Part shown: positions 43,374 to 64,000 of the stretch, in pieces | How positions within the stretch are numbered: the first letter of the stretch is position 1 | Layout: the number at the start of each line of letters is the position of its first letter | From: Klenkia soli | Lineage (GTDB): Bacteria > Actinomycetota > Actinomycetes > Mycobacteriales > Geodermatophilaceae | Reading direction: 5' to 3' | NCBI RefSeq assembly: GCF_900103975.1 | Contig: NZ_FNIR01000011.1 | Location: forward strand, 1 to 64,000 | Length of the DNA: 64,000 bases | The notes under the pieces: generated by a model | Database searches by the model: none | What the model was told of the DNA's origin: nothing | Seen by the model: the letters and a program-made list of their open reading frames with translations, nothing else | Made by a program: the position numbers and the translations under genes

Positions 43374-44137
43374 GTGCGCCAGGCCCCGGGGCTGGTGCCG
43401 TAGCGGCGGCGGAACGCGGTGCCGAAGCCGTGCACCGATCCGTACCCCACCCGGCCGGCGACCGCGGCGACCGGCAGGCCGCGCTCGAGCAGCGGGAGGG
43501 CGGTCTGCAGCCGGGCGCAGCTGCGCCACTCGGTGAACGTCAGGCCGGTGCCGGTGACGAACGCGCGGCGCAGCGTGCTCTCGCCGACCCGCAGCCGCGC
43601 CGCCCAGTCGGCCAGCGGGGTGTCGTCACCGGGGTCGGCGAGCAGCCGGGCGGCGACGGCGGCGGCCCGCGCATCGGCCGGCAGCACCAGGCCGTCGTCG
43701 GCGACCACGGCACCGGCCACCTCGTGCAGCACGAGCGCCAGGGTGGGTCCGCCCACCGGACCCTCCCCGCCGCCCTGGCCCAACGACAGCAGCAGCTCCC
43801 GGAGCAGCCCGGACACCGCCAGCACGGTGGGTCGGGTCCACGGCAGCCCGCAGGCCCGGGGCCAGACGTAGAGGCAGTGCAGCGCGGCGGGCGGACGGAG
43901 GGCCACGTCGTGGGGCGTCCCGCCCGGCACGAACAGGGCCCGCGACGGCGGCAGCACCCAGGACCGACCGCCCGCCTCGGCCCGCGCCGACCCGACCGCC
44001 GTCCAGACCAGCTGGTGCTGGTCGTGCCGGTGCATCCCCCACGCCCCCGGTTCGGCGGGGTCGAACGCGCAGGTCCAGGCGTCCCGCTCCGCCGAGTCGT
44101 GGTGGTCGACGGTGCGGACGGCGTCGAGGGCGGTCAC
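43370..44137 (-). CDS. AraC-family regulator
   Basis: A 255-residue regulator with an N-terminal cupin domain (GMHRHDQHQLVW, ALFVPGGTPHDVAL) and C-terminal double helix-turn-helix: LADWAARLRVGESTLRRAF and LPVAAVAGRVGYGSVHGFGTAFRRRYGTSP in outline. GTG start with AGGAGG 4-5 nt upstream. Convergent with the MFS gene and divergent from the siderophore-binding lipoprotein; either could be its target. Confidence 0.9.
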   Translation of the reverse strand: MTALDAVRTVDHHDSAERDAWTCAFDPAEPGAWGMHRHDQHQLVWTAVGSARAEAGGRSWVLPPSRALFVPGGTPHDVALRPPAALHCLYVWPRACGLPWTRPTVLAVSGLLRELLLSLGQGGGEGPVGGPTLALVLHEVAGAVVADDGLVLPADARAAAVAARLLADPGDDTPLADWAARLRVGESTLRRAFVTGTGLTFTEWRSCARLQTALPLLERGLPVAAVAGRVGYGSVHGFGTAFRRRYGTSPGAWRT

Positions 44138-44191
44138 CGGGCCTCCTGAGCGCTGGGCGTCGTCGTCGGGACGCTGACGGACTGGGCAGCG

Positions 44192-44212
44192 TGGATAGGG
44201 CAGCCTAACCTC
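44192..44212. promoter_or_regulatory. DtxR/IdeR-like iron box
   Basis: The sequence TGGATAGGGCAGCCTAACCTC resembles the actinobacterial iron box TTAGGTTAGGCTAACCTAA: the inner TAGG and CCTA are inverted and the right half CCTAACCT is close to consensus. It lies 36-56 bp before the siderophore-binding protein start, so iron-replete repression is likely. Confidence 0.6.
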
Positions 44213-44247
44213 AGCGAGCCATCCCGTCGTCGTCCCCTGGAGTCCCC

Positions 44248-45258
44248 GTGCGCCCGTCCCCGTCCCGCCTCGCCGTCGTCGCCCTCGCCGGGCTGCTGCT
44301 CGCCGGCTGCGGCTCGCCGGCCGACGACCCCGCCGCCGACGGGCCGGCCGACGGCGGCGGAGTCTTCCCCGTGACGGTGGAGCACGCCTTCGGCAGCACG
44401 ACGGTGGAGTCCGAGCCCACCCGGGTGGTCAGCGTCGGGTACACCGAGCAGGACACCCTGCTGGCCCTCGGCGTCGTGCCCGTCGGGGTGACCGAGTGGT
44501 ACGGCGAGCAGCCCTACGCCACCTGGCCGTGGGCCCAGGACGAGCTCGGGGACGCCGAGCCGACGGTGCTGACCACCGACGACGGCCTCCAGTTCGAGGC
44601 CATCGCGGCGCTGGACCCCGACCTCATCGTGGCCACCAACGCCGGGCTCGACCAGGAGGACTACGACACCCTCTCGGGGATCGCGCCGGTCGTCGCGCAC
44701 TCGGCCGAGGCCTACTTCGAGCCGTGGGACGTGCAGACCCTCGCCATCGGCACCGCCCTCGGCAAGGCCGACGAGGCGCAGGAGCTGGTCGACGGCATCG
44801 AGGCGCAGTTCGCCGAGGCCGCGGCCGAGCACCCCGAGTTCGCCGGCACCCCGGCGGTGTTCCTGCAGAACGCGGTCTACGAGGGCGACCTGATCGCCTA
44901 CCAGGAAGGGTTGTCGACGGCGTTCCTCACCGACCTCGGGTTCACGGTCCCGGCCGTGCTCGACCAGTTCGCCACCGAGGGGCAGGCCTACATCCCGCTC
45001 GAGCAGGCGCCGGTGCTGGACGAGGCCGAGGTGCTCATCTGGGGCACCGAGGCGCCGGCCGACCGGGCCGCCCTGGAGTCGCTCGGGGTGTACCGGTCGC
45101 TGTCCGCGGTGCAGGGCGGGCACCTCGTCTTCACCGACGGCACGCTGGCGGGGGCCATCTACTTCACCAGCCCGCTGTCGCTGCCGTACGTGCTCGACCA
45201 GCTGGTGCCCGCCCTGGCCACCGCCGTCGCCGGGGATCCCTCCACCGTCCCGGCCTGA
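44248..45258 (+). CDS. Iron-siderophore ABC transporter binding lipoprotein
   Basis: A 336-residue FecB/FepB-type binding protein. Lipobox LLLAGC (Cys21). Family segments: PTRVVSVGYTEQDTLLALGV, VTEWYGEQPYATWPWA and EAIAALDPDLIVATNAGL. It would deliver a ferric siderophore to a FecCD-type importer, but no permease or ATPase is adjacent, so it may serve a system elsewhere. GTG start with TGGAG. Preceded by an iron box. Confidence 0.92.
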   Translation: MRPSPSRLAVVALAGLLLAGCGSPADDPAADGPADGGGVFPVTVEHAFGSTTVESEPTRVVSVGYTEQDTLLALGVVPVGVTEWYGEQPYATWPWAQDELGDAEPTVLTTDDGLQFEAIAALDPDLIVATNAGLDQEDYDTLSGIAPVVAHSAEAYFEPWDVQTLAIGTALGKADEAQELVDGIEAQFAEAAAEHPEFAGTPAVFLQNAVYEGDLIAYQEGLSTAFLTDLGFTVPAVLDQFATEGQAYIPLEQAPVLDEAEVLIWGTEAPADRAALESLGVYRSLSAVQGGHLVFTDGTLAGAIYFTSPLSLPYVLDQLVPALATAVAGDPSTVPA

Positions 45259-45259
45259 C

Positions 45260-45337
45260 GGAACGTGACCGTCCGGTCACCTTCTCCACCCATCGAGGGA
45301 CCCTGCCCGGCCCACACGGAACGTCGCCGTCCGGTTG
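45260..45337. repeat. Repeated GGAACGT...CCGTCCGGT element with an inverted repeat
   Basis: GGAACGTGACCGTCCGGTCA at 45260-45279 and GGAACGTCGCCGTCCGGTTG at 45318-45337 match at 16 of 20 bases. The first copy contains the perfect inverted repeat GTGACCG-TC-CGGTCAC (45265-45280), 7 bp after the lipoprotein gene. It may be a terminator for that gene, an operator for the secreted repeat-protein locus, or both. Confidence 0.45.
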
Positions 45338-45380
45338 ACTGTTCGTAGTCACCCGATGACCATGCGTGGAGGTGAGCAGG

Positions 45381-46319
45381 ATGTCCGCATCCCGTCCTCC
45401 TGCCCGCCTGTGCCGCATCGCCGGCCGTGCGCTCACCGTCGCCGGCCTCGGGGTCGGGGTGTGGTTGGCCGGTCAGGCCGCTGCGTCCGCCTCGGCCGAG
45501 GAGCCCGCCGCCGGTTCGCTGCTGTCGGGCGTCACGGCCCCGGTCGCCGACCTGGTGGGCGAGGTCGCGGCGCCGGTCTCGCAGGTGGTCGCCCCGGTCT
45601 CACAGGTGGCAGCCCCGGTCGTCGCGCCGGTGGCGCACACCGCGGCGCCCGTGGTGCAGGCCGTCGCGGCACCGGTCGCACCGGTCATCGCACCGGTGGC
45701 GCAGGCCGTGGCGCCCGTGGTCCGCGCGGCGACCCCTGTGGTCGCCCCGGTGGTGGCCCCGGTGGTCTCGGCCGTGCAGCCCGTGGTGGCCGCCGTGACC
45801 CCGCTGACCAGCGCTCTCGCCCCCGTGACCAGCGCCCTGAGCCCGATCACGCACGCACTGACCCCCGTCACCGACGCCCTCGCCCCGGTCGCCGAGGCGT
45901 TGGCGCCGGTCGTCGGCACCCCGGGTCCGGTCGCCGGCCCCCTGCTCGCATCGCCCTCCGCCGGTCCCGTCGCCCCCGGCGAACCCACGGCCACCTCGTC
46001 CGATGTGGCGGCCGGTGGCAGCTCGGCCGCCACGGGCACCGCCCGCGGGTCCGGCGTCACCGCCGGCCCGGACCCGGTCACCGCCGTCCCGACCGTGCCC
46101 ACCGACGGCCCGGCCTCCCCCGCCGCCCCGGCCCCGGCCTTCCCCGGCGCGGGCGGGTCGACCGGCAGCGCCTCCGGTGGCCTTGACGCCGACCAGACCG
46201 CGGCCGACCTCGCCGCTGCCGTCCTGGCCGCCGACGCCTCCGGGCTCGCCGCGGCCGCGCACACCGCCCGCGACGCCGCGGGCAACACCGCCTTCGACCC
46301 CTCCTTCTCGCCCGACTGA
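45381..46319 (+). CDS. Secreted Ala-Pro-Val repeat protein, locus 1
   Basis: A 312-residue exported protein of no family known to me. Residues 1-39 are a signal peptide (RRNA-like basic start, TVAGLGVGVWLAGQAAASA, then AEEP). Residues about 51-180 are a degenerate repeat of the kind APVxxVxAPV, where Pro-Val pairs recur every 4-7 residues. The rest is Pro/Ala/Gly/Thr-rich with an Ala-rich helix-like patch, and the C-terminus is AFDPSFSPD. A paralogue at 55194 ends in AEPSFSPD. ATG with GGAGGTGA upstream. Followed by the chaplin-like gene. Likely cell-surface or matrix protein. Confidence 0.8.
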   Translation: MSASRPPARLCRIAGRALTVAGLGVGVWLAGQAAASASAEEPAAGSLLSGVTAPVADLVGEVAAPVSQVVAPVSQVAAPVVAPVAHTAAPVVQAVAAPVAPVIAPVAQAVAPVVRAATPVVAPVVAPVVSAVQPVVAAVTPLTSALAPVTSALSPITHALTPVTDALAPVAEALAPVVGTPGPVAGPLLASPSAGPVAPGEPTATSSDVAAGGSSAATGTARGSGVTAGPDPVTAVPTVPTDGPASPAAPAPAFPGAGGSTGSASGGLDADQTAADLAAAVLAADASGLAAAAHTARDAAGNTAFDPSFSPD

Positions 46320-46426
46320 CGGACGCCCGCTCAGCCTCTGCGCGCTGAGCACGGCCCGACCCGGCCCGCCCGCTGTGCGGGACCGGTCCCCCTCAGTCCG
46401 GCACCACTCCCGAGAAGGACCTCGTC

Positions 46427-47443
46427 ATGAACATCTGGATCACGCGCGGCCTGCAGACGGCGCTGCTCACCGGTGGCCTCCTGGCCGTCGGCAGCGGCAT
46501 CGCCTCCGCCGACGACAGCATCGACCTGACCGTCCCGGTCACCGTCTCCGACAACGCGATCGCGCTGCTCGGCACCGCGACCACCGCACCGACGGCCCCG
46601 GCCGCACCCGCGGCCGACCTGTCCGTGGACCTGGGCGCGATCAGCGTCTCGGTGCCGGTCACCGTCAGCGGCAACGCCGTCGGCGTCCTGGGCGACACCG
46701 CCACCACCGGCAGCGCCACCCCGACGCCGGCACCCACGTCCGCGGACGGCGGCGGCACCGACGTCGACCTGCCGATCACCGTCACGGGCAACACGGTCGG
46801 CGTGCTCGGCGACGCCACCGCCCAGGGCACCGCCCCGGCCGGCACGACCGGTGACGACGGCGGCGGCATCGACGTCACCGCACCGGTCCTGGTCGGCGGC
46901 AACGCCGTCGGGGTCCTGGGCGACGCCACCGCCGGCACCACCACCCCGGCCGACACCGGCACGGGCACCGGCACCGGCACCGGCGCCGGCAGCAGCGGCG
47001 GCGGCGTCGACGTCACCGCACCGATCACCGCCTGCGGCAACGCCGTCGGGGTCCTCGGCGACGCCGCCGGCACCTGCACCCTCCCCGCCGGCACCCCCGG
47101 TGGTGGCGGTGGCATCGACGTCGACGTCCCCGTGACCGCCTGCGGCAACGGCATCGCCCTGCTGGGCGACGCCTCGGCCACCTGCGGCACCCCCGGTACG
47201 CCGACCACCCCGGTCCCGCCGATCACCGGTGACCCCCAGGGTCCCCGGACCGACGGCCCGCTGGGGATCACCCCGGTCGCCCTCCAGGGCACGCCGACGG
47301 CCACCGGCACCCCGGTGACCGGCACGACCGACGCCGGCTCGCTGGCCTACACCGGCAGCGACCTCGGCACCCCGCTGCTGGCCGGTCTGCTCGCCCTGCT
47401 GCTCGGGGCCGCGCTCAGCACGGTGCGGCGCCGCACCAGCTGA
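46427..47443 (+). CDS. Chaplin-like six-repeat surface protein with LAYTG sorting signal
   Basis: A 338-residue secreted protein. Signal peptide residues 1-28 (GIASA then DDS). Six repeats of about 20 residues follow the pattern VPVTVSGNAVGVLGDAT: near 32-51, 72-92, 112-131, 148-167, 194-217 and 230-253. The last two carry a Cys pair (ACGN...GTC and ACGN...ATC), as in chaplin domains, whose core is also VxVCGNxVxVxG. Linkers are Thr/Gly/Pro-rich. The C-terminus has LAYTG (306-310), a hydrophobic helix and RRR, a class E sortase (LAxTG) anchor. Probable wall-anchored amyloid-like surface protein. ATG with AAGGA. Confidence 0.85.
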   Translation: MNIWITRGLQTALLTGGLLAVGSGIASADDSIDLTVPVTVSDNAIALLGTATTAPTAPAAPAADLSVDLGAISVSVPVTVSGNAVGVLGDTATTGSATPTPAPTSADGGGTDVDLPITVTGNTVGVLGDATAQGTAPAGTTGDDGGGIDVTAPVLVGGNAVGVLGDATAGTTTPADTGTGTGTGTGAGSSGGGVDVTAPITACGNAVGVLGDAAGTCTLPAGTPGGGGGIDVDVPVTACGNGIALLGDASATCGTPGTPTTPVPPITGDPQGPRTDGPLGITPVALQGTPTATGTPVTGTTDAGSLAYTGSDLGTPLLAGLLALLLGAALSTVRRRTS

Positions 47444-47456
47444 CCGGCACCGCCCC

Positions 47457-47485
47457 GGCCCGGCCGTCCTCGCGACGGCCGGGCC
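47457..47485. terminator. Bidirectional terminator hairpin
   Basis: Perfect 12-bp stem, arms GGCCCGGCCGTC and GACGGCCGGGCC, loop CTCGC. It lies between the convergent stops of the chaplin-like gene (47443) and the GntR gene (47514). Confidence 0.7.
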
Positions 47486-47513
47486 GTCGGCATGCCCGGA
47501 TGTTCCACGTGGA

Positions 47514-48248
47514 TCAGGTGCCGAGCTCGACCGTCATCTGCACCTCGTACCGCTCGCCGTGGTAGGTCGAGATGTCGTGCTCGACCGGCCGTCCCCGGCT
47601 CCACGAGATGCGGTCGAAGACCAGCACCGACCGGCCCGCGGCCAGGCCCAGGTGCACCCCGGTCGCCCGGTCCACCTCGGCGGCGCGGACGGTCTGCTCC
47701 GCGCGGTCGATCGGGCAGCCGTACTCCTCGGCCAGCAACGTGTACAGCGACCCGCTGAGGTCGCGCTCGCCCAGGCCGGGCAGCAGGTCGGCGACGTACC
47801 AGCCGTCGTCCACCGACATCGGCTGGCCGTCGGCCAGCCGCACCCGGCGGACGTGCCAGGCCGGGGCCCCGGCCGGCAGCTCCAGCGCCCGCCGGGTCGC
47901 GGCCGGCGGCACGGCGCGCTCGACGTCGAGCACCACCGTGGACGGCGTGAGCCCCAGCCGGCGCATGTCCTCGTGGAAGGAGGCCAGGTGGAGCTTCGAC
48001 CGCGCCTTGCGCTCGGCCACGAACGTGCCCTTGCCGCGCACCCGCACCAGCACGCCCTCGCTGACCAGCTGGCCGATGGCCTCGCGCACGGTGATCCGGC
48101 TGACCCCGTGCTCCACGCACAGCTGCCGCTCGCCCGGCAGCGGGGTGCCCGCCGGCAACCGGGCGGCCAGCTCGGTCAGCCGTCCGCGCAGCTGCTCGTG
48201 CTTGGGCACCAGGCCGTCGACGATCAGCGGCTCGGTCACGGCGCTCAT
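47514..48248 (-). CDS. GntR/HutC-family regulator of GlcNAc genes (DasR/NagR type)
   Basis: A 244-residue regulator. Winged helix-turn-helix: PGERQLCVEHGVSRITVREAI then GVLVRVRGKGTFVAE. The C-terminal UTRA domain (about 95-240) would bind a phosphorylated amino sugar. It is the last gene of the EIIC-nagA-nagB-gntR operon (4 nt after nagB), and a dre-like site lies upstream of that operon, so autoregulation and control of both strands of the PTS are probable. Confidence 0.92.
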   Translation of the reverse strand: MSAVTEPLIVDGLVPKHEQLRGRLTELAARLPAGTPLPGERQLCVEHGVSRITVREAIGQLVSEGVLVRVRGKGTFVAERKARSKLHLASFHEDMRRLGLTPSTVVLDVERAVPPAATRRALELPAGAPAWHVRRVRLADGQPMSVDDGWYVADLLPGLGERDLSGSLYTLLAEEYGCPIDRAEQTVRAAEVDRATGVHLGLAAGRSVLVFDRISWSRGRPVEHDISTYHGERYEVQMTVELGT

Positions 48249-48252
48249 CGTG

Positions 48253-49041
48253 TCACCAGCCCTGCGTCGCCAGCTTGTGCGCCAGCACGTACCGGTAGTA
48301 CTCGGCCCGGGCCAGCCGGGACGCCGCCGCGTCGTCGACGACCACCGTGACGTGCGGGTGCAGCTGCAGCACCGAGCCGGGGCACGACGCGCTCACCGGG
48401 CCCTCGACGGCGTCGGCCACCGCGGCGGCCTTGGCCTCGCCGGTGGCCACCAGCACCAGGTGCCGCGCCTCCCGGATCGTGGCCAGGCCCTGGGTGATGA
48501 CGTGCCGCGGCACGGCCTCGACGTCGTCGCCGAAGAAGCGGGCGTTGTCGAGGCGGGTGCGCTCGGTGAGCGTCTTGACCCGGGTGCGGCTGGCCAGCGA
48601 CGAGCCCGGCTCGTTGAACCCGACGTGCCCGTTGCCGCCGATGCCCAGCACCTGCACGGCGACCGGCCCGGCCGCCTGCAGCTGCGCCTCGTAGTCGACG
48701 GCGGCCTGCACCGGGTCGGCCGCGGAGCCGTCGGGACCGTGCACCTCCAGGCCGAGCTCGTCGGTGCACTCGCGCCGGATCACCTCGCGGTAGGACTCCG
48801 GGTGCCCCGCCGGCAGGCCCACGTACTCGTCGAGCAGGAACGCCCGGACGCCGTCGGCCGTCCACTCCCCCGCACGGTGCCGGGCCTGCATCTCGCGGTA
48901 GGCCAGCAGCGGCGAGGACCCGGTGGCCAACCCCAGCGCCACCGGACCGCCCCCCGCCTGGGCCGCGGTCACCGAGGCGATCACCGCGTCGGCGACGACG
49001 CGCCCGCAGTCCTCGGGGGTGGGCAGCAGCACGAGCTCCAA
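48253..49041 (-). CDS. nagB: Glucosamine-6-phosphate deaminase
   Basis: A 262-residue NagB that converts glucosamine 6-phosphate to fructose 6-phosphate and ammonia. Motifs: GLATGSSPLLAYREM (phosphate loop), FLLDEYVGLP (catalytic Asp), VLGIGGNGHVGFNEPGSSL, and FGDDVEAVPRHVITQGLA. The start is TTG at 49041, supported by GGAGG 8 nt upstream and a family-like MELVLLPTPEDCGRV N-terminus; a GTG at 49032 is less likely. 3 nt after nagA. Confidence 0.95.
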   Translation of the reverse strand: MELVLLPTPEDCGRVVADAVIASVTAAQAGGGPVALGLATGSSPLLAYREMQARHRAGEWTADGVRAFLLDEYVGLPAGHPESYREVIRRECTDELGLEVHGPDGSAADPVQAAVDYEAQLQAAGPVAVQVLGIGGNGHVGFNEPGSSLASRTRVKTLTERTRLDNARFFGDDVEAVPRHVITQGLATIREARHLVLVATGEAKAAAVADAVEGPVSASCPGSVLQLHPHVTVVVDDAAASRLARAEYYRYVLAHKLATQGW

Positions 49042-49044
49042 CGG

Positions 49045-50186
49045 TCAGTCCTCCATCAGGGGGTGACCCGCGGCGAGGACCGCCACGGGCACGAGGTCGG
49101 CATCGGTGACGAGCACGTCGGCCCGGGCGCCGGGGGTCAGCCGGCCGACGTCGGTGCGGCCCAGCAGGTCGGCCGGGGTCTGCGTGGCGGCGAGGACGGC
49201 GTCGGCCAGCGGGACTCCGGCGGCCACCGTGCAGCGGACGACGTCCAGCAGCCGGGCGGTGCCGCCGGCGATGGCCCCGCCGTCGGACAACCGGGCCACA
49301 CCGGCGGCGACGGTGACCGGCAGCCCGCCCAGCTGGTAGCCGCCGTCGGGCATCCCGGCCGCGGCCATCGCATCGCTGACCAGCGCGACCTGAGCCGGCC
49401 CGACCAGGTCGAAGACCATGGCCACGGTCTCGGGGGCGAGGTGCACGCCGTCGGCCACCAGCTCGAGCACCAGCTCGCCGCGACCGGCGGCGGCGAGGCA
49501 GGCACCCACCGGGCCGGGCGCCCGGGACAGCAGCGGCGGCATGCCGTTGAACAGGTGGGTGGCCGACACCCGACCGGTCGCCGCCGCGGACCGGACGGCC
49601 GCGGTCGTCACCGCCGCGGTCGCGTCGGTGTGCCCGAAGCTCGGCAGCGCACCGTGCTCCCGGAGGACGGCGACCAGCTCGTCGGCGTGCGCGGTCTCCG
49701 GCGCCAGGGTCGTGGAGACCACCACGCCGGCGGCCAGCAGCTCGCGCAGCAGCGCCGGGTCGCCGGGCAGCAGCGCGGCCGGGTCCTGCGCGCCGCACCG
49801 GGCGGTGGACAGGAACGGCCCCTCGAGGTGCACCCCGGCCAGCTCGCCGGACCGCACCAGCGGGGCCAGCAGCGCGATCCGCTCGTGCAGCGTCGCCGGC
49901 GGGGCCGAGACCAGGCTCGCGACCAGGGTCGTCGTCCCGTGCCGGCGGTGGTGGTCCGCCGCGGCACGCACCCCGGCGACGTCGCCGTCCGGGAAGCCGT
50001 GCCCGCCGCCGCCGTGGCAGTGCAGGTCGACCAGGCCGGGCAGCAGCAGCCGGTCCGGCGCCGCCGGGGGCAGGGCGCCGGGGAACCCGGCGGCCGGTCC
50101 GGCGTACCCGACCCGGCCGTCGACGACGGTGACCACACCGTCGTCGACGACCGAGCCGCCGGTGACCAGCCGGCCGCGGAGAACGG

Positions 50187-50190
<4 letters not shown>
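49045..50190 (-). CDS. nagA: N-acetylglucosamine-6-phosphate deacetylase, probable CTG start
   Basis: A 381-residue amidohydrolase giving glucosamine 6-phosphate and acetate. Metal and active-site motifs: LPGLVDLHCHGGGGHGF, GVHLEGPFLS, SFGHTDATAA, THLFNGMPPL and ALVSDAMAAAG. A family-like N-terminus (TVLRGRLVTGGSVVDDG) lies upstream of the first ATG, GTG or TTG that could be used, and the only fitting start is CTG at 50190. That CTG overlaps the TGA of the EIIC gene as CTGA, mirroring the ATGA/GTGA couplings elsewhere. A GTG near 50136 would delete the N-terminal strand. Confidence 0.88.
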
Positions 50191-51485
<1,295 letters not shown>

Positions 51486-51526
51486 CTCGATCTCCGGGTT
51501 CTCTTCGCGGGTGCCGGCCGGTACGG

Positions 51527-51542
51527 TCCGGTCATGACCAGT
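51527..51542. promoter_or_regulatory. dre-like operator for DasR/NagR-type GntR
   Basis: On the minus strand the site reads ACTGGTCATGACCGGA. The dre consensus is ACTGGTCTAGACCACT, so the TGGTC-NN-GACC core is perfect. The central GGTCATGACC is a 10-bp palindrome. It lies 42 bp upstream of the EIIC start and 68 bp upstream of EIIB, where it could control both directions. Confidence 0.72.
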
Positions 51543-51556
51543 TGACGGGGAGAATG

Positions 51557-51570
51557 GCGAACCTGTTCGC
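51557..51570. promoter_or_regulatory. Second palindrome in the PTS divergent region
   Basis: GCGAAC-CT-GTTCGC, a 6+2+6 perfect inverted repeat 40 bp before the EIIB start. A TTGACG -35-like hexamer precedes it at 51542-51547. Could be an operator for another regulator. Confidence 0.4.
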
Positions 51571-51609
51571 TCCCTGTCAACCACCCGTCCAGATCCCCGG
51601 AGGAATTTC

Positions 51610-51840
51610 GTGAGCAAGGCCGAGCAGATCGTCGCCGGACTGGGCGGGGCCCAGAACATCGAAGAGGTCGAGGGGTGCATCACCCGGCTGCGCACCGAGG
51701 TGCGTGACCCCTCCCTGGTCGACCAGGTGGCGCTCAAGGCCGCCGGTGCGCACGGCGTGCTGGTCGCCGGTTCGGTGGTCCAGGTCGTCGTCGGGCCCGA
51801 GGCCGACAGCCTCGCCGACGACGTCAACGACCTGCTGTGA
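51610..51840 (+). CDS. PTS EIIB, glucose/GlcNAc type
   Basis: A 76-residue stand-alone EIIB. The phosphorylated Cys23 is in the motif EGCITRLRTEV; LKAAGAHGVLVAGSVVQVVVGPEAD fits the rest of the domain. GTG start with GGAGGAATTTC upstream. It transfers phosphate from EIIA to the sugar bound by EIIC, the divergent gene. Its TGA overlaps EIIA's GTG. Confidence 0.94.
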   Translation: MSKAEQIVAGLGGAQNIEEVEGCITRLRTEVRDPSLVDQVALKAAGAHGVLVAGSVVQVVVGPEADSLADDVNDLL

Positions 51841-52298
51841 GCCTGCTGGTCGGCGCCCCGTTCGCCGGCACGCTGCTGGCGATCGAGGACGTCCCCGACC
51901 CGGTGTTCGCCGCGTCGATGGTCGGCGCGGGGGTGGGGGTCGAGCCGGGTCCGGACGCCGGGCTGGTCGATGTCGTCGCGCCGGTGACCGGGCGGCTGCT
52001 CAAGGTGCACCCGCACGCGTTCATCGTGCTCACGCCCGAGGGGCGCGGCGTGCTGGTGCACGTCGGCATCGACACCGTGAAGCTCGACGGCGCCCCGTTC
52101 ACGCTGCACGTCACCGAGGGCGACGAGGTGGCCGCCGGCGACCGCGTGGTGACCGTGGACGTGACCGCGGTGCGCGCGGCGGGGATGTCCCCGGTCAGCC
52201 CGGTGGTGGTCATGGACGCCGCCGCCGACACCATGCCCGAGGTCGCCGCAGGCACGCAGGTCGAGCCGGGCGCCGAGCTCTTCACCTGGCCCCGCTGA
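51837..52298 (+). CDS. crr: PTS EIIA, glucose type
   Basis: A 153-residue EIIA(Glc). The two active-site histidines are His60 (KVHPHAFIV) and the phosphorylated His75 (GVLVHVGIDTVKLDG). Beta-sandwich pattern and the FTLHVTEGDEVAAGD segment are typical. Overlaps EIIB (GTGA), so the two are co-translated. It receives phosphate from HPr, whose gene is not in the window. Confidence 0.94.
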   Translation: MSLLVGAPFAGTLLAIEDVPDPVFAASMVGAGVGVEPGPDAGLVDVVAPVTGRLLKVHPHAFIVLTPEGRGVLVHVGIDTVKLDGAPFTLHVTEGDEVAAGDRVVTVDVTAVRAAGMSPVSPVVVMDAAADTMPEVAAGTQVEPGAELFTWPR

Positions 52299-52318
52299 GG
52301 CCCAGCTCTCCGGACGGC

Positions 52319-52374
52319 GAGTGTGCAGTTGTCGGGGTCGGCGGGCCCCGACGCGGCCCGACAACTGCACACTC
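52319..52374. repeat. Long perfect inverted repeat between crr and a DUF559 gene
   Basis: Perfect 18-bp arms: GAGTGTGCAGTTGTCGGG at 52319-52336 and its complement at 52357-52374, around a 20-nt GC-rich spacer that itself can pair (GTCGG with CCGAC). It lies between convergent genes, so it may be a bidirectional terminator, but the arm sequence is unlike the GC-only terminators elsewhere in the window. Confidence 0.7.
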
Positions 52375-52394
52375 GACCCCGTGGCCGTAGGTGG

Positions 52395-53240
52395 TCAGCC
52401 CAGCAGGCGGGCGAGGCGGGTCAGGAGTGCGGTCGGGTCGCGACGGTCGGCGGCGGTCGCGAAGGTGACCCGCCACCCCGCGTCGGCGAGGGCGTCCAGC
52501 CGCCGTCGGTCGCGGGCGAGCTGACCGGGTTCACCGTGCCAGGCGCCGTCGTACTCCAGGGCGACCCTGCGCTCCGGCCAGGCGAAGTCGACCCGGGCGA
52601 CGAACCGCCCGCCGGCCTGCCGCACCACGAACTGGGCCACCGGCGCGGGTAGCCCGGAGCGCAGCACGAGGAGTCGCAACCAGGTCTCCGGCGGCGACTC
52701 GGCCAGCCCGTCGGCCAGGTCCAGGGCCTCGCGGGCCCGGGCGCAGCCCCGACCCGTGCGCCCGGCAGCGGCCGCGCGCAGGGCGTCCAACCGCAGCGAC
52801 CCCGACGACGTCCACCGGTCGGCGAAGGTCACGCCCTCGTCCAGCGACAGCCGGCCGAGCACCTCGAGGGCCGCGGCGTCGGCGCTGAGGAACCGCAGGC
52901 CGAGACCGGACACGACGTCGTCCGGGTGCAGGACCGCACGGCGGACCCGACACCCGGCCGCCCGGACCGGGTGCGTGCCCGGTGGCCGGGTCAGCTCCAG
53001 CAGGTCCTGGTCCCGGTCCGGGACGGGCAGCCGCCAGATCTGCAGCGCGGACGAGCCGGTCACCACGGCGTCGGGCCAGCGCACCAGGGCGGCCCGGGAC
53101 CGCAGGAGCGGGTCCTCGGGGACGTCCGCGGCGACGTGCACCCCGCGCAGGAGCACACGGACACGGGGGCCGCGGAGCACGTCCGTGGTCAGCCAGCCGG
53201 CTCGCACGGCGTCGGCACCGCGGAAGGGTTCGTCGAGCAC
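52395..53240 (-). CDS. DUF559-type endonuclease-like protein with AbiEi-like N-terminus
   Basis: A 281-residue protein. The N-terminal part (VLDEPFRGADAVRAGWLTTD through VLLRGVHVAAD) resembles AbiEi-type winged-helix proteins. The C-terminal about 100 residues are a Vsr/DUF559 PD-(D/E)xK-like domain: PETWLRLLVL, then RVDFAWPERRVALEYDGAWHG, holding the acidic residues expected of that fold. Common as solitary genes in actinobacteria; function uncertain. GTG at 53240 preferred for the family-like start; a GTG at 53285 is possible. Confidence 0.78.
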   Translation of the reverse strand: MLDEPFRGADAVRAGWLTTDVLRGPRVRVLLRGVHVAADVPEDPLLRSRAALVRWPDAVVTGSSALQIWRLPVPDRDQDLLELTRPPGTHPVRAAGCRVRRAVLHPDDVVSGLGLRFLSADAAALEVLGRLSLDEGVTFADRWTSSGSLRLDALRAAAAGRTGRGCARAREALDLADGLAESPPETWLRLLVLRSGLPAPVAQFVVRQAGGRFVARVDFAWPERRVALEYDGAWHGEPGQLARDRRRLDALADAGWRVTFATAADRRDPTALLTRLARLLG

Positions 53241-53337
53241 CCGGGCAGCCTCACCCACCGAATGGCCCGCACCGGGGTTGCCCACAGGTCCCGGCCCCCG
53301 GAGAGGACCGCGGACCCGCCGCGGCAGGCGCCCCTGG

Positions 53338-54384
53338 TCAGCTGAAGAGGGCTGAGTAGCCGTTCAGCGCCGGCTGGCCGCCGAGGTGGGCGTAGAGCAC
53401 CGTCGCGTCCCTCGCGATCTCGCCCGTGCGCACCAGCTCGATGGTCGCGGCCATCGACTTCCCCTCGTACACGGGGTCGGTGACCATGCCCTCGGTGCGG
53501 GCGGCGGTCTCCATCGCGCGCAGGGTGGTGTCGTCCGGGATGCCGTAGATGCCGGCGTGGAAGCGCTCGTCGAGCTCGACGTCGTCCAGCGTCAACGAGC
53601 GCTGGAGCCCGATCGCGGCGGCGGTGCGCTGGGCGATGCGCAGCACCTGGTCGCGGGTCTCGGCGGGCTTGGCCGAGGCGTCGACGCCCAGCACCCGGCG
53701 CGGGCGGCCGCCGTCCTCCTCGAGCTTGGCGAACCCGGCCACCATGCCGGCCTGCGTCGACCCGGTCACCGAGCAGACGACGACGGTGTCGAAGAAGACG
53801 CCGAGCGCGGCCTCCTGCTCGGCCACCTCGTAGGCCCAGCCGGCGAAGCCGTGGCCGCCGAGCGGGTGGTCCGACGCCCCGGCCGGGATGGCGTAGGGCT
53901 TGCCGCCGCGGGCCTCGATCTCGGCCAGCGCGGTCTCCCACGACTCCTTGAACCCGATGCCGAACCCGGCCTTCACCAGCCGGACGTCGGCGCCGGCCAG
54001 CCGGCTGATGAGGATGTTGCCGACCTTGTCGTAGACCGCGTCGGGCCAGTCGACCCAGCTCTCCTGCACGAGCACGCACGCAAGGCCCAGGTGCGCGGCG
54101 ACCGCGGCGACCTGCCGCGTGTGGTTGCTCTGCACCCCGCCGATCGAGACCAGGGTGTCGCAGCCCTGGGCGAGGGCGTCGGCGACCAGGTACTCGAGCT
54201 TGCGGGTCTTGTTCCCGCCGTAGGCGATGCCGGAGTTGCAGTCCTCGCGCTTGGCCCAGACCGCGGCGCCGCCCAGGTGCTCGGTCAGCCGGTCGAGGCG
54301 GTGCACGGGCGAGGGCCCGAACAGCAGCTTCGTGCGGGGGAAGTCGGCCAGCGTGGTCGGTGCAGTGGTCGATGCAGTGGTCAC
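53338..54384 (-). CDS. acdS: 1-aminocyclopropane-1-carboxylate deaminase
   Basis: A 348-residue PLP enzyme that opens ACC to 2-oxobutyrate and ammonia, lowering plant ethylene. The PLP lysine is Lys59 ([11 protein letters not shown]). Other diagnostic residues separate it from D-cysteine desulfhydrase: the Glu in DPVYEGKSM and the Leu in [15 protein letters not shown]. Also [18 protein letters not shown] start overlaps the stop of the upstream GntR gene, so the pair is co-translated. Points to a plant- or soil-associated life. Confidence 0.93.
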
Positions 54385-55031
54385 TCGGTCTCCTCGGTCA
54401 GCTCGGACAGCAGCGCCGTCCAGATGGCGGTCGTGGTGGCGACGGCGACGGCCACGTCGCCGTCCTGGCAGGCGGTGATCAACTGGTCGTGCAGCTCGAC
54501 CGAGGCGGCTCCGTGCGCCGCCGCGAAGCGTTGCCGCTCCAGCCGCCGCACGAGCGGGGTGAAGCGGTCGATCGTGGCCCGCACGGCACCGTTGCCGGCC
54601 CGGACGACGAGCACGTCGTGCAGCGCGTCGTCGCTGGTCAGCGCGTCGTCCACGGCTCCAGTGCGGACGGCGCGCGCGAACGCCGCGTTGGCGTCGCGCA
54701 TGGCCGCGACGTCGTCGGCGGTGACGTGCGGGACGGCGGTCCGCACGGCCAGTTCGTGCATGGCCGCGACCACCGCGGCGGCGTCCCGCACGATCCCGGG
54801 GACGACGGCGGTGACCCGGGTGTGGCTCTGGGGGACCGACTCCACGAGGCCTTCGTCCGCGAGCCGGGCGAGCGCCGCCCGCACCGGTGCGACCGACAGG
54901 TCGAGCCGGGTCGCCAGCTCGGCGTCCTTGACCACCCCACCGGGCGGCAGCTCACCGGTGACGATCGCCTCGCGCAGCCGCGCGAGCGCGACGTCGCGGA
55001 GCAGGAGACGGGGCGCGGGCACAACTGACAT
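54381..55031 (-). CDS. GntR/FCD-family regulator of acdS
   Basis: A 216-residue FadR-type regulator. Helix-turn-helix: [18 protein letters not shown], then [16 protein letters not shown]; the C-terminal FCD domain (about 85-205) has helix patterns and His/Asp positions for metal-ligand binding ([18 protein letters not shown]). ATG at 55031 lies inside a 19-bp palindrome. With TTGACA and TGAGAT elements upstream, a leaderless start at GTG 55022 is also possible. Control of acdS is inferred from coupling; acdS is more often Lrp-controlled. Confidence 0.88.
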
Positions 55032-55043
55032 CTCAGATGTCAG
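55025..55043. promoter_or_regulatory. 19-bp perfect palindrome at the GntR start
   Basis: CTGACATCTCAGATGTCAG is perfectly symmetrical about position 55034. It overlaps the ATG of the GntR gene and a possible -10 element, with a TTGACA -35 on the minus strand about 17 bp upstream. This is the size and place of an FCD-type autoregulatory operator. Confidence 0.65.
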
Positions 55044-55117
55044 AAGCGGTCCTGTCAAGACCGGACAGTGTTCGCAACCACCCCCGATACCGGTTCACCT
55101 CGACCGCGTGTCGAACG

Positions 55118-55151
55118 GAACTGGACGTTACCCATGGGTAATGTCCAGTTC
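55118..55151. promoter_or_regulatory. 34-bp near-perfect palindrome upstream of the locus 2 repeat-protein genes
   Basis: The arms GAACTGGACGTTACCCA and TGGGTAATGTCCAGTTC pair at 16 of 17 positions; the one mismatch is a G-T pair. Centre between 55134 and 55135. It lies 43 bp before the Ala-Pro-Val repeat gene and 87 bp from the divergent GntR start. It is too long for a simple operator and has no loop, so it may bind a dimer of dimers or form a cruciform or RNA hairpin. Confidence 0.65.
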
Positions 55152-55193
55152 TGGGTAGCGCGCTCTCCGAGCTCGCACCTACCGTCGAGTGCG

Positions 55194-56294
55194 ATGGCGA
55201 TCACACGGGGGTGTGCGAGCGACCAGCAGGCCGAGCGCCGCTGGTCGTGGACCCGCCGTGCGCTGGCCACCCTCGGCATGGGGGTGGGTGCCTACGCAGC
55301 CATCGCCCTCGGCGCCGGTGCGGCCTCGGCCGACGAACCCCCGCCCGACGGCGGCGCGGTGGCCCAGGTCGTGGCCGGCGTCGGCGACACCGCCGCCGAG
55401 CTCGTCGCCCCGGTGACCGATGCCGCGGGGGCTCCGGCGCTCGACCCCGTCGCACAGCCCGTCGTCGCGGCCGTCGACCCGGTCGTGGCACCGGTCCTCG
55501 AGGCCGTCGAGCCGGTGACCCAGCCGGTGGTCGCCGCGGCGGAACCCGTCGTCGACCCGGTCGTGCACGACGTCGCCCAGCCGGTCGCGCAGGCCGTGGC
55601 AGCACCCGTCGTCGCCGACGTCGCGGCACCCGTGGCGGATGCGGTCCTCACGCCGGTCGTGTCGGCCGCGGCACCCGTGGTCGCCTCCGTCGTCGACGAC
55701 GTCATCGCCCCCGTGACCACCCCGGTGGTCGACGCGGTCGTGGCTCCGGTGGTCGCCGAGGTGGTGGCCCCGGTGACCACCCCGGTCGTCCGCGACGTCG
55801 TCGCCCCCGTCGTGGCCGGCGTCGTCGCACCGGTCACCACCCCAGTGGTCGACGAGGTCGTCGCACCGGTCGTCGACGCGCTCGTCCCGACCGTCGCACC
55901 CCCGGCCCAGGCGGCGCCGGTCCCGACGTCCCCGACCGGGACGACCCCGGCTGCGGACCCCGCGGCTGCCGCCCGGACCGCCGTCGTCGGGTCCGCCCCG
56001 GCCGCGCCGGCGAACGGGACCTCGGCGGACGTCGCCACCGCGGCCGCATCCGGCACCACGACCCCGGCCGCGCCCACCACCCCGGCCGGCTCCCCGCTGC
56101 CGGCCGTCCCTGCGGCACCGGCCGGTCAGGGCGGGTCGACCCCGGGCTCCGGCGGCGCCGGCCCGAACACCCTCGCCGACGCCACCTCCGCGGCGGGCCT
56201 CCAGCTCCCGGCCACGGCCGGTTCCCCGGCGACCTCGCCGGTGGCCCTGCTCGTCGACGGCACCGTCGCCGAGCCCTCGTTCTCCCCCGACTGA
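55194..56294 (+). CDS. Secreted Ala-Pro-Val repeat protein, locus 2
   Basis: A 366-residue exported protein paralogous to that at 45381. Signal peptide about residues 1-46 (RRALATLGMGVGAYAAIALG, cleaved after GAASA, then DEPP). Residues 70-235 are Val/Pro/Ala repeats, including three nearly exact 20-residue units at about 171-190, 191-210 and 211-230 built on VAPVTTPVVxxVVAPVV. A Pro/Thr/Ala/Gly-rich region follows, and the C-terminus is AEPSFSPD. No membrane anchor or sorting motif seen. Followed by the Gly/Asn repeat gene. Function unknown; matrix or envelope structural role is inferred. Confidence 0.8.
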   Translation: MAITRGCASDQQAERRWSWTRRALATLGMGVGAYAAIALGAGAASADEPPPDGGAVAQVVAGVGDTAAELVAPVTDAAGAPALDPVAQPVVAAVDPVVAPVLEAVEPVTQPVVAAAEPVVDPVVHDVAQPVAQAVAAPVVADVAAPVADAVLTPVVSAAAPVVASVVDDVIAPVTTPVVDAVVAPVVAEVVAPVTTPVVRDVVAPVVAGVVAPVTTPVVDEVVAPVVDALVPTVAPPAQAAPVPTSPTGTTPAADPAAAARTAVVGSAPAAPANGTSADVATAAASGTTTPAAPTTPAGSPLPAVPAAPAGQGGSTPGSGGAGPNTLADATSAAGLQLPATAGSPATSPVALLVDGTVAEPSFSPD

Positions 56295-56430
56295 CCTCCC
56301 CGCGGCCAGGCACCGGCGTCCGTCCAGGACCCGCCCCGGTCGTGACCCGTCCGCACCACCGCGTCCGGTCACCGACGACCGCCCGCGACCACACGGACAC
56401 CGCGCAGCAGCGCGGACGGAAGGACAGATC

Positions 56431-58782
56431 GTGAACCGACACATCCGCAACGGACTCACCGTTGCGACCATGACCGGCGGGATGTTCCTGCTGGGCCAGG
56501 CAGTGGCCAGCGCCGACGAGGGCAGCCATGCCCTCTCCCCGGTGACCGACGCAGTCTCCTCGGTGGTCGGTGGTGACGCCGCGGCCAACTCGGGCAACGA
56601 CGTCGACTCCGGTACGGCCACGGCCAACTCGGGCAACACGGCCGACGGCCAGGGCGGCGACGCCTCCGCCCAGGGCGGGAACGCCACCAACAACGGGGAC
56701 GCCACCGCCGGCAACGGCGGCAACGCCGCCAACAACGGCTCCACCGGGGGCAACGAGGCGACCGCCGACGCCGCCCCGCAGGAGCAGCAGACGACCTACG
56801 CGACCTCGTCCCACGAGGGCGGCCAGCAGGGCGGCGACTCCGCCGCCCACGCCGACGGCTCCTCCGGGGACGTCGACCAGGGCGCCGAGGCCGGCGACGG
56901 CGGATCGGTGGTCGGGTCGAACAACCCGACCGGCGGCTCCCCGCAGGGCGGCGACGCCTCCGGCACCGGCGGCAGCAACGACTCCGCCACGGGGGCGAAC
57001 TCCGGCAACGCGACCGGCTCCTCGTCCCAGGCCGAGGGCGGAGCGGCCGACTCGACCGCGAGCTCCGACAGCCAGGGCCAGGACGGCGGTCAGCAGTCCG
57101 CCGACAGCTCGGCCGAGGGCGGCGACGGGACGGCGAACTCGGGCAACACCGTCGACTCCGGTGACGCCACGGCCAACTCCAGCAACACCGCCGACGGCCG
57201 AGGTGGCGATGCCTCCGCCCAGGGCGGCAGCGCCACCAACGACGGGAACGCCACCGCCGGCGACGGCGGCAGCGCCACCAACAACGGCAGCACCGGCGGC
57301 AACGAGTCCCACGCCTACGCCTTCTCGCTGTTCGGTGATTCGAACGCCACCTCCGACGCCTCCTCAGGCGACGTCAACCAGGGCGCGCAGGGCGGCGACG
57401 GGGGCTCGGTCGAGCACTCGAACAACCCGCAGGGCGGCTCCCCGCAGGGTGGTGACGCCTCCGGCACCGGTGGTGGCAACCACTCCTCCACCGGCGCGAA
57501 CTCGGGCAACCTGACCGGGTCCGACTCGCAGGCCTCCGGCGGTGACGCCGACGGTTCGGCCGAGTCGGCCGACAGCTACGGCCGGCACGCCTCGGACGAG
57601 GGCAGCTCCTCGGCCGGGACCACCTCCCAGGGCGGTGACGGAACGGCGAACTCCGGCAACGACGTCGACTCCGGGGACGCCACAGCCAACTCCGGCAACA
57701 CCGCCGACGGCCGGGGTGGCAACGCCTCGGCCACCGGCGGCAACGCCACCAACAACGGCGACGCGGACGCCGGGGACGCCGGGAGTGCCACCAACAACGG
57801 CAGCACCGGCGGCAACCGGTCCTACTCGCTGTCCCTCGCGGTGTTCGGGGACTCGACCGCGAACTCCGACGCCTCGTCCGGGGACGTCAACCAGGGCGCT
57901 CGCGGTGGGGACGGCGGATCCGTCTCCGGATCCAACAACCCGACCGCCGGCTCGCCGCGCGGTGGGGACGCCTCGGGCACCGGGGGGCACAACTCCTCGA
58001 CCACCGGCGCCAACTCCGGCAACGCGACGGGCTCCTCGTCCGATGCGCACGGCGGCGACAGCACCGGCACCTCGAGCTCGACCAGCTCGCACCCCCGTGG
58101 GTGGGACAGCTGGGAAGCCCTGGGCGGCGGCGGATCCGACGACTGGTTCACCGGCGGCTCGTCCACCGGTGACGCCACCAGCACCGTGACCGGTGGGGAT
58201 GCCACGTCGAACTCCGGCAACGACGTCGACTCCGGTGACGCCACGGCCAACTCCGGCAACACCGCCGACGGCCAGGGCGGCGACGCCTCCGCCCAGGGCG
58301 GCAACGCCACCAACGACGGGAACGCCACCGCCGGCAACGGCGGCAGCGCCACCAACAACGGCACCAACGGTGGCAACACCGCTGAGTCCGAGGCCCGCAC
58401 CGAGTCCGACGAGGGCAACGGCGACCGGTCCGGCTGGGGTCACGACACCTGGGGTCACGACACCTGGGGCCACGACACCTGGGGTCACGACACCTGGGGC
58501 CACGACCAGGGCTCCGGGGACCAGCACAGCACCTCGGACGCCTCGTCCGGGGATGTGAACCAGGGCGCCGCCGGCGGCGACGCCGGCGCCGTCGAGCACA
58601 GCAACAACCCGATGGGCGGTTCGCCCCAGGGCGGGGACGCCTCCGGCACCGGTGGCAGCAACCACTCCGCCACCGGCGCGAACTCGGGCAACCTGACCGG
58701 CTCGAGCTCCGAGGCCACCGGCGGCGACGCCGACGGCTCGGCGTCGAGCTGGCTCGGCGAGCTGGTCGGGTCGCACCACTGA
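56431..58782 (+). CDS. Giant secreted Gly/Asn/Ser repeat protein
   Basis: A 783-residue exported low-complexity protein. Signal peptide about residues 1-28 (MNRHIRNGLTVATMTGG, cleaved after AVASA), related to that of the chaplin-like protein. Four long repeats of about 170-190 residues start near nucleotides 56571, 57120, 57630 and 58185. Each contains ANSGNDVDSGDATANSGN, then GGDASAQGGNATNNGDATAG, SSGDVNQGA, NNPxGGSPQGGDASGTGG and TGANSGN. A short WGHDT motif is repeated five times (58435-58506). No cysteines, no sorting signal. The regular Asn/Gly spacing suggests a beta-solenoid or a disordered, possibly glycosylated matrix. GTG start with GGAAGGA. Confidence 0.8.
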   Translation: MNRHIRNGLTVATMTGGMFLLGQAVASADEGSHALSPVTDAVSSVVGGDAAANSGNDVDSGTATANSGNTADGQGGDASAQGGNATNNGDATAGNGGNAANNGSTGGNEATADAAPQEQQTTYATSSHEGGQQGGDSAAHADGSSGDVDQGAEAGDGGSVVGSNNPTGGSPQGGDASGTGGSNDSATGANSGNATGSSSQAEGGAADSTASSDSQGQDGGQQSADSSAEGGDGTANSGNTVDSGDATANSSNTADGRGGDASAQGGSATNDGNATAGDGGSATNNGSTGGNESHAYAFSLFGDSNATSDASSGDVNQGAQGGDGGSVEHSNNPQGGSPQGGDASGTGGGNHSSTGANSGNLTGSDSQASGGDADGSAESADSYGRHASDEGSSSAGTTSQGGDGTANSGNDVDSGDATANSGNTADGRGGNASATGGNATNNGDADAGDAGSATNNGSTGGNRSYSLSLAVFGDSTANSDASSGDVNQGARGGDGGSVSGSNNPTAGSPRGGDASGTGGHNSSTTGANSGNATGSSSDAHGGDSTGTSSSTSSHPRGWDSWEALGGGGSDDWFTGGSSTGDATSTVTGGDATSNSGNDVDSGDATANSGNTADGQGGDASAQGGNATNDGNATAGNGGSATNNGTNGGNTAESEARTESDEGNGDRSGWGHDTWGHDTWGHDTWGHDTWGHDQGSGDQHSTSDASSGDVNQGAAGGDAGAVEHSNNPMGGSPQGGDASGTGGSNHSATGANSGNLTGSSSEATGGDADGSASSWLGELVGSHH
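58435..58506 (+). repeat. WGHDT pentapeptide tandem repeat in the giant repeat protein
   Basis: Five near-identical 15-bp units, GGTCACGACACCTGG with alternating GGT/GGC, encode WGHDT. The alternating third base shows that the array grew partly by duplication of a 30-bp pair. Confidence 0.8.
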
Positions 58783-58798
58783 TCCGGTAGCGCGCGCC

Positions 58799-58834
58799 AC
58801 GGTCGGGGCCCGTCACGGGGCGGACCCCGGCCGT
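58799..58834 (+). terminator. Terminator hairpin after the giant repeat gene
   Basis: Arms ACGGTCGGGG and CCCCGGCCGT pair at 9 of 10 positions with one wobble, and an inner CCG/CGG extends the stem. Seventeen bp after the stop. Confidence 0.6.
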
Positions 58835-58859
58835 CGGCGTGCCCGGTTACCGTGCCGGT

Positions 58860-59375
58860 GTGGCTGCCGAACCGACCCGTGAGCGCACCTACACGTGGGG
58901 CGACCCCTCGATCTCCGCCGCGGAGGTGATGACCAGCGCGGGCATCGACGTGCTGCGCGGCATCGCCGAGGGCCGTCTGCCGGCCGCCCCCATCGCGATG
59001 ACGCTGGGCATGGGGCTGGAGTCGGTCGAGCCGGGCAAGGTCGTGTTCACCCTCGAGCCGGCCGAGTTCCACTACAACCCCATCGGCTCGGTGCACGGCG
59101 GGGTCTACGCCACGATCCTGGACTCCGCGACCGGTTGCGCCGTCCACTCGATGCTCCCGGCCGGGGTCGGCTACACCAGCCTCGACCTCACGGTGAAGTT
59201 CCTCCGCGCGATGACCACCCGCACCGGCCTGGCCCGCTGCACCGGCACGGTCACCCACCTGGGCGGTCGCACGGCGCTGGCCGAGGCCCGGCTGACCGAC
59301 GCCGACGACCGGCTGCTGGCCACCGCCACGAGCTCGATCCTCGTCATGCGGCCCGAGCCCCGGGTGGTGCAGTGA
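58860..59375 (+). CDS. PaaI-type hotdog-fold thioesterase
   Basis: A 171-residue hotdog thioesterase. The conserved central helix region is NPIGSVHGGVYATILDSATG, with the HGG motif and acidic residue of the PaaI/4HBT group; YTSLDLTVKFLRAM and GRTALAEARL follow. Would hydrolyse acyl-CoA. GTG at 58860 chosen; GTG at 58839 possible. Its stop overlaps the next gene (GTGA). Confidence 0.9.
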   Translation: MAAEPTRERTYTWGDPSISAAEVMTSAGIDVLRGIAEGRLPAAPIAMTLGMGLESVEPGKVVFTLEPAEFHYNPIGSVHGGVYATILDSATGCAVHSMLPAGVGYTSLDLTVKFLRAMTTRTGLARCTGTVTHLGGRTALAEARLTDADDRLLATATSSILVMRPEPRVVQ

Positions 59376-59971: not shown

Positions 59972-59974
59972 CCC

Positions 59975-63769: not shown

Positions 63770-64000
63770 TCAGCCCTTCTTCTGGGCGGTCTCCACGCTG
63801 ATCAGCCCCAGCAGCAGCGACCAGCCCAGGGCGATGCCCAGCAGCAGGTCGGGCACCTCGCCCAGCAGCAGCCCGATGACCAGCGGCACCGTGCCCAGGA
63901 CGCCGAGGTCCAGACCCCGGACGAGGGTCACGCCCACGCCGGTGGGCACGGCGCCCATCGGGGAGGAGAGCACGGGTCCGGACCAGTCCAGCTCGGGCCG
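63770..64000 (-). CDS. Hypothetical membrane protein, C-terminal part (cut by window edge)
   Basis: The minus strand is open from the right edge to 63770. The readable part (at least 67 residues after a possible GTG at 63973, with the frame continuing upstream) has two hydrophobic segments (LGVLGTVPLVIGLLLG and LLLGIALGWSLLLGLISV) and a basic end (QKKG). The start may lie outside the window. Family not recognised. Confidence 0.5.
   Translation of the reverse strand, partial: RPELDWSGPVLSSPMGAVPTGVGVTLVRGLDLGVLGTVPLVIGLLLGEVPDLLLGIALGWSLLLGLISVETAQKKG

Follow-up and report, generated by a model that had tools for sequence, protein, structure and literature searches.

In many actinobacteria outside Streptomyces, chaplin-like proteins usually have as their neighbour a member of one family of low-complexity, exported-looking proteins. 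The members of this family end in a conserved C-terminal peptide, of which PSFSPD is the commonest form in the samples analysed. The chances that this peptide docks in the surface layer are, in our judgement, about even. The textbook coat of aerial hyphae in Streptomyces consists of chaplins. The builders of a chaplin coat in other actinobacteria are poorly known, and the recurring partner gene bears on this question. Six to seven residues long and separable from the rest of the protein, the end opens the coat question to direct tests. Should the tail bind the chaplin-like protein, it would also be a ready-made peptide handle with which to decorate bacterial surfaces.

Two tail proteins in Klenkia soli

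The window, i.e., the whole stretch of DNA analysed, comprises positions 1 to 64,000 of the forward strand of the Klenkia soli contig NZ_FNIR01000011.1 (GCF_900103975.1). It holds two tail genes, A and B, each with a partner gene.

45381..46319, + strand: protein A, 312 aa (open reading frame and translation)
45381..45497, + strand: hydrophobic N-terminal segment of A that contains the GxW motif AGLGVGVWLAG and an AxA site (translation)
46299..46319, + strand: C-terminal tail PSFSPD and stop codon of A, within NTAFDPSFSPD (pattern search)
46427..47443, + strand: partner of A, 338 aa, secreted-looking chaplin-like repeat protein with a LAYTG-type C-terminal sorting region (Pfam, NCBIfam)
55194..56294, + strand: protein B, 366 aa, second tail protein in the window (open reading frame and translation)
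56274..56294, + strand: C-terminal tail PSFSPD and stop codon of B, within TVAEPSFSPD (pattern search)
56431..58782, + strand: partner of B, 783 aa, secreted-looking, with NSGN/GGDA-type repeats (N-terminus matches the partner profile)

Protein A consists of an N-terminal secretion-type segment, an Ala-Pro-Val repeat region, a Pro/Gly/Ser-rich linker and the C-terminal tail. The N-terminal segment is likely a signal peptide, which may be cleaved. An earlier note on this DNA had claimed that two otherwise divergent Ala-Pro-Val proteins end in PSFSPD directly at the stop codon. Both ends were confirmed, at 46319 and 56294, and "otherwise divergent" is a fair description for local alignment, as BLASTP of A against B aligns just the last 10 residues (7/10 identical, E 0.15). 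The DNA pattern for PSFSPD plus stop matches exactly twice in the window and never in 100 shuffles; in the whole genome it also has exactly two matches, and the reversed pattern has none. Beyond the tail, A and B have in common the type of N-terminal hydrophobic segment and the gene order, in which a larger secreted-looking repeat protein comes next. The genome contains a third strong partner match, on contig 18, and the gene upstream of it ends in DPGSRPD.

The partner of A scores 17.4 bits against the chaplin model PF03777 (ChpA-C), under the 21-bit cut-off, and 21.6 bits against the NCBIfam LAVTG model, under the 27-bit cut-off. For the partner of B, no Pfam match was obtained and LxxTG was not seen at the C-terminal end.

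Both pairs lie next to regulator genes. A palindrome was found upstream of B:

55118..55151, + strand: near-perfect palindrome with 17-bp arms, 94% complementary (palindrome search)

It separates tail gene B from a divergent regulator gene of the GntR/FCD type (54381-55058, minus strand; Pfam), and is a possible operator. Pair A adjoins, within 47514-50544, a gene for a GntR/UTRA regulator (47514-48248), a glucosamine-6-phosphate-isomerase-family gene (48253-49041) and an amidohydrolase-family gene (from 49045 on), all on the minus strand. These neighbours look like amino-sugar genes. A DasR-type site was sought and none was found near them; a single match with three mismatches lies 16 kb off, at 63972, and such a match occurred in 9 of 100 shuffles. 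A matching frame after the pair is also present at three other loci (L067, L073, L074).

The C-terminal peptide across genomes

Among 112 genomes of the same family, the tail pattern gave 26 matches, spread over 22 genomes and 5 of the 12 genera, against two for the reversed pattern. Each of the 26 matches closes a long Ala/Pro/Val-rich frame; a contig start truncates two of the frames, and one tail reads PCFSPD. The tail is therefore not a product of chance. Order-wide (397 genomes), 49 matches were obtained against 21 for the reversed pattern. Outside the family, 14 of the 27 matches are proteins of the tail kind, one ending in PSFCPD. The other 13 include nine with TGG in place of the stop codon (L029, L031-L033, L035, L037, L050, L054, L056), the short frames L034 and L036, and an unrelated complete protein ending in PPTFTPD (L030); G295 was left out.

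With the narrower pattern [DE]P[ST]FSPD-TGA, a scan over 84,980 species gave at least 116 matches. By eye, 112 of the 116 listed are actinobacterial proteins of the tail kind, some of them truncated where the stretch ends, and four unrelated ones (L111, L135, L137, L149) were dropped. The genera among the matches listed are Nonomuraea, Microbispora, Planotetraspora, Streptosporangium, Herbidospora, Acrocarpospora, Sphaerisporangium, Planomonospora, Lentzea, Geodermatophilus, Klenkia, Modestobacter, Nocardiopsis and Nocardioides, together with one Actinoallomurus metagenome genome. The earlier note had named two outcomes that would speak against a terminal signal. The first, a motif at random positions, is contradicted by the 26 family matches at frame ends. 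The second was a motif restricted to these two proteins through recent duplication. A and B do lie only 10 kb apart in one genome, but the tail recurs in many genera on proteins with divergent middles; the cross-genus scans refute this explanation, and that duplication or chance alone keeps the tail is next to impossible.

Judged from the collected sequences, the near-constant unit is [D/E]-P-x-x-x-P-D-stop, not PSFSPD. DPSFAPD, DPATSPD, DPSSSPD, DPGSRPD, QPGVTPD and others occupy the same slot. In the 71 tails found through their partners (see below), which were chosen for Pro-Asp, Pro is found at -6 in 68, and Asp or Glu at -7 in 66 (61 Asp, five Glu). A set of 29 non-redundant tails gives Pro at -6 in 26, Asp at -7 in 23 (Asp or Glu in 24), Ser at -3 in 17, Arg at -3 in six and Phe at -4 in 11. 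Pro-Asp is the part that changes least, and the residues in between vary. A second set of paralogues, which includes the contig 18 pair of this genome, ends in DPGSRPD, DPATRPD and similar. Tails of family f15 read QPGVTPD or QPGVIPD, and those of family f51 TDTTPD or TDVSPD. At all three loci of family f41 (L283, L284, L285), the upstream proteins end in HLRPDTSPG or HLRPDVSPG, with Gly replacing Asp as the last residue. A co-variation of Arg at -3 with "RNG"-type partners (10/10 versus 1/61 for other partners) was considered and is weakened by counterexamples: Ser stands at -3 in window B and L081, which have "RNG"-type partners, and in L079, whose partner is close to the type. All three were found through the tail.

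The frequency of Asp at -7 and Pro at -6 could suggest self-cleavage at the Asp-Pro bond or a covalent attachment, in which the new Asp end would be joined to the wall or the partner and PSFSPD would be the leaving group. One would not expect a leaving group to be conserved best, however, and members with Glu, Arg, Gln, Ala or Ser at -7, or Thr at -6, occur. Such cleavage is disfavoured as a general mechanism by members without Asp at -7 or without Pro at -6, and we regard it as improbable.

The conservation is at the protein level. Over 127 tails, all four Pro codons are used, as are all four TCN codons at -3; since the third codon positions are free to vary, selection acts on the peptide. 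A DNA- or RNA-level element (a terminator, an overlapping gene or a regulatory site) which happens to encode the tail would fit a sequence that abuts the stop codon and, in the window, lies about 100 bp ahead of the linked gene. The free synonymous variation speaks against it, no terminator-like site was found at 45200-47600, and the region 44000-60000 gave no Rfam match. This explanation was rejected as very improbable.

Pairing with chaplin-like proteins

The gene pair of the window recurs. Out of 135 distinct tail genes, 10 with less than 400 bp of downstream sequence were set aside. By a loose rule, 115 of the remaining 125 are followed on the same strand by a gene for a secreted-looking protein, a number that contains false partners (L042, L059, L062, L079). 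The downstream gene starts 50-1021 bp past the tail (median 197). In three of the nine failures (L041, L071, window B), the rule missed a real partner. At L041, two transposase-type frames lie 46-972 bp past the tail gene, between it and the chaplin-like partner, with both genes of the pair still there. The first of these frames matches Pfam DUF4096 (IS4/5 family). At L081, a further secreted-looking protein, ending in EPAVSPD, is encoded 2041-3391 bp past the tail gene, after the partner of a B-type pair, so that tail proteins can also sit downstream.

The pairing was also approached from the partner side. Profiles of the first 65 residues of the partners match 46 of the 112 family genomes and 103 of 394 genomes of the class. 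As they were built from tail-adjacent partners, the search is independent of the tail sequence, not of the pairing. The 79 loci taken (the best 30 per profile search and 19 chosen ones, namely seven strong and 12 weaker matches) are best matches and not a random sample. L203 has no upstream open reading frame and stands outside the count. At 71 of the other 78 loci, the nearest upstream frame ends in Pro-Asp-stop (70 of 77 distinct loci, window A being present twice, as L204 and L262). As a background, 462 open reading frames (100 aa or more) were called in the window and L038-L081, and 28 of them end in Pro-Asp; 25 of these are tail proteins, leaving three among 437 others.

The seven misses are of different kinds. 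At four loci of family f31 (L266, L267, L269, L270), the tail gene is located one gene further upstream and ends in DDPSFSPD, DDPSYSPD, DDPSFAPD and DDPSFSPD, respectively, with a second chaplin-type or unread frame between partner and tail gene. The remaining three are L237 (contig end), L238 (an anchored protein upstream, on a short contig) and L274 (genus taken to be Streptomyces). At five further partner loci outside Streptomyces, Pro-Asp was found at the end once and Pro-Gly three times; the fifth end is unread. No tail gene was seen at the L287 partner locus.

Many of the partners are recognisable chaplins. At E 0.01, PF03777 matches 19 of 25 sampled partners (best E 7.6e-57) and is absent from six. 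Among 95 complete candidate partners, 84 end in a hydrophobic run with basic residues, and 33 of these carry LxxTG near the end.

In some families, the resemblance extends to the locus. An M20 peptidase (Pfam PF01546) is encoded upstream of the tail gene at 33 of the 64 named-species loci with room to see it. The same peptidase precedes chaplin genes at six of 11 loci of g105 (genus taken to be Streptomyces from its chaplin set and large number of genomes), with 69-74% identity between tail-gene loci and chaplin loci. At five of these six (L293-L297), a short chaplin occupies the slot of the tail gene, with PF03777 confirmed for L293. The tail gene itself is absent from all 11 g105 chaplin loci. 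The [DE]PSFSPD-type pattern, which does not cover variant tails, gave one match in 150 g105 genomes, with TGG in place of the stop. The M20-flanked locus is presumably chpH-chpC. In S. coelicolor, short ChpH and long ChpC are reported to give a ChpE-only strain robust aerial growth (PMC3079736).

Possible role of the tail in a surface coat

An N-terminal hydrophobic segment is conserved in the family as well. It is recognisable in 64 of the 71 partner-anchored tail proteins by a looser rule (a stricter rule gave 46/71), with Trp in 62 and Tyr in two, and an AxA site is present in 59 of the 64. Such a segment suggests export. In L250-L252, a conserved GWLLG or GWLFG hydrophobic segment has no clear AxA site directly after it, and tail proteins of this type may therefore remain membrane-held.

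No domain accounts for the rest of the protein. Protein A has no match in Pfam or NCBIfam at E 1, and a set of 36 diverse tail proteins shares no domain of either library, each giving one stray match. PF03777 at E 0.01 matches none of these 36, A and B included. AlphaFold2 modelled A with low overall confidence (mean pLDDT 64, pTM 0.23). The model contains a signal helix (12-36), one long helix that spans the Ala-Pro-Val region (52-177, with pLDDT climbing from about 50 to 91), an unstructured part (178-276, about 40-60), a helix at 277-301 (about 81-89) and an extended tail (63-70). For the Nonomuraea jabiensis homologue (mean pLDDT 61, likewise low), the N-terminal helix alone is confident (78-98), and the rest lies at about 50-60. 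The spacer is low in complexity and variable; its disorder is not certain in A.

The earlier note had proposed a recognition, retention or sorting tail. Recognition is the natural reading of a motif which occurs only at the very end, has been kept over great distance and is under protein-level constraint. The idea of a usual sorting signal did not hold up as well, because the tail is found on one family with a conserved N-terminal segment, mostly in one gene neighbourhood, and not on assorted cargo. As a sorting or retention signal, the free C-terminus would be read by an export, anchoring or retention machine which fixes the protein at the surface. The strictly terminal position, the conservation over several families and the protein-level constraint are what such a signal would require. 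Known examples differ in their build, though. Sortase (LPXTG/LAXTG) and PEP-CTERM-type signals are likewise short conserved motifs near the C-terminus of secreted proteins, but they need a hydrophobic membrane segment and basic residues after the motif, whereas the tail motif ends at the stop codon with neither. Type VII secretion substrates have a YxxxD/E tail, and the absence of a Sec-type N-terminus by which they are recognised does not apply here, given the hydrophobic segment in the 64 tail proteins mentioned above. Moreover, the middle residues of the motif vary much, and the 36 diverse members, devoid of unrelated domain content, represent a single protein kind. Overall, a sorting signal seems unlikely.

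Alternatively, the penultimate Pro might act as a cap which shields an unstructured secreted protein from carboxypeptidases, with no binder involved. The constancy of Pro-Asp, the variation of the residues in between and the predicted disorder of parts of the protein agree with this. It leaves unexplained why the inner Asp-Pro and, in many lineages, Phe-Ser are kept as well, and why the pairing with chaplin-like proteins is constant, and we rate it slightly below the sorting signal.

The preferred reading, docking of the tail within a chaplin coat, would work as follows. The two genes form one unit, with the tail protein first and the chaplin-like protein second. The tail protein would be exported through its N-terminal segment, and the middle, variable in length, would be a spacer giving reach. 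The free C-terminal peptide would then dock on a conserved surface of the coat, provided most likely by the chaplin-like partner or by a shared wall component. The docked end would give specificity, and the coat would be placed or nucleated. The model for this is the combination of free short chaplins with anchored long chaplins in Streptomyces, with the tail protein taking the slot of the free component. A tethered docking peptide would be the simplest mechanism for a drifting middle with a fixed free end.

Some observations speak against docking. Six Geodermatophilus genomes (L059-L063, L066) encode a DPSFSPD protein of about 650-850 aa with no chaplin adjoining, and have their chaplin pair elsewhere, with the tail DPATSPD or DPASSPD. 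These long proteins would be better explained by a sorting signal than by docking to a partner. Furthermore, the partner of B is not recognisable as a chaplin, six of the 25 sampled partners lack a PF03777 match, the f41 loci end in SPG, and L287 showed no tail gene. The helix predicted over the Ala-Pro-Val region of A means that the spacer may not be disordered. Shared ancestry could also keep both ends and the gene order while the tail has a function unrelated to the chaplin. After several of the long Geodermatophilus genes come small Gly-rich frames with GGGDGGGG-type runs at their ends.

More tentatively, and with clearly less confidence than in docking as such, the pair may be an unnamed module of surface biogenesis. 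It would consist of an exported tether in which a conserved N-terminal segment, membrane-held or cleaved, and the Pro-Asp peptide bracket a free spacer, this peptide being read by the neighbouring chaplin-like protein. Standing where Streptomyces has a short chaplin, it would represent an older and more widespread route to a chaplin coat, including that of Klenkia and Geodermatophilus.

In the literature searched, which had most subscription papers outside its scope, no description of the tail was found, and "PSFSPD" gave no match. The closest known arrangement is that of the Streptomyces chaplins, with short ChpD-H and long, sortase-anchored ChpA-C. The partner gene resembles a long chaplin, and in both cases an unanchored secreted-looking protein and then a chaplin follow the same M20 peptidase. 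The tail protein differs in having no chaplin domain and in ending with [D/E]PxxxPD. Comparison through the Pfam and NCBIfam libraries gave no match linking the 36 tail proteins to rodlins. The rodlins RdlA and RdlB of Streptomyces are secreted surface proteins which function alongside chaplins (PMC5618241, PMC4255298), as the tail proteins may do; obvious rodlins are, by the account of one review, reported from streptomycetes only (PMC4255298). The nearest two-gene unit for surface proteins found outside Streptomyces is CwpA/CwpB of Actinoplanes missouriensis, an operon described as linked to a class E sortase (PMC13251363). By that description, each of the two proteins carries a sorting signal and lacks a chaplin domain, whereas an unanchored tail protein is combined here with a chaplin-like one. 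Chaplin-like genes as such have been noted in Streptosporangium roseum, Nocardiopsis dassonvillei and others (PMC4255298).
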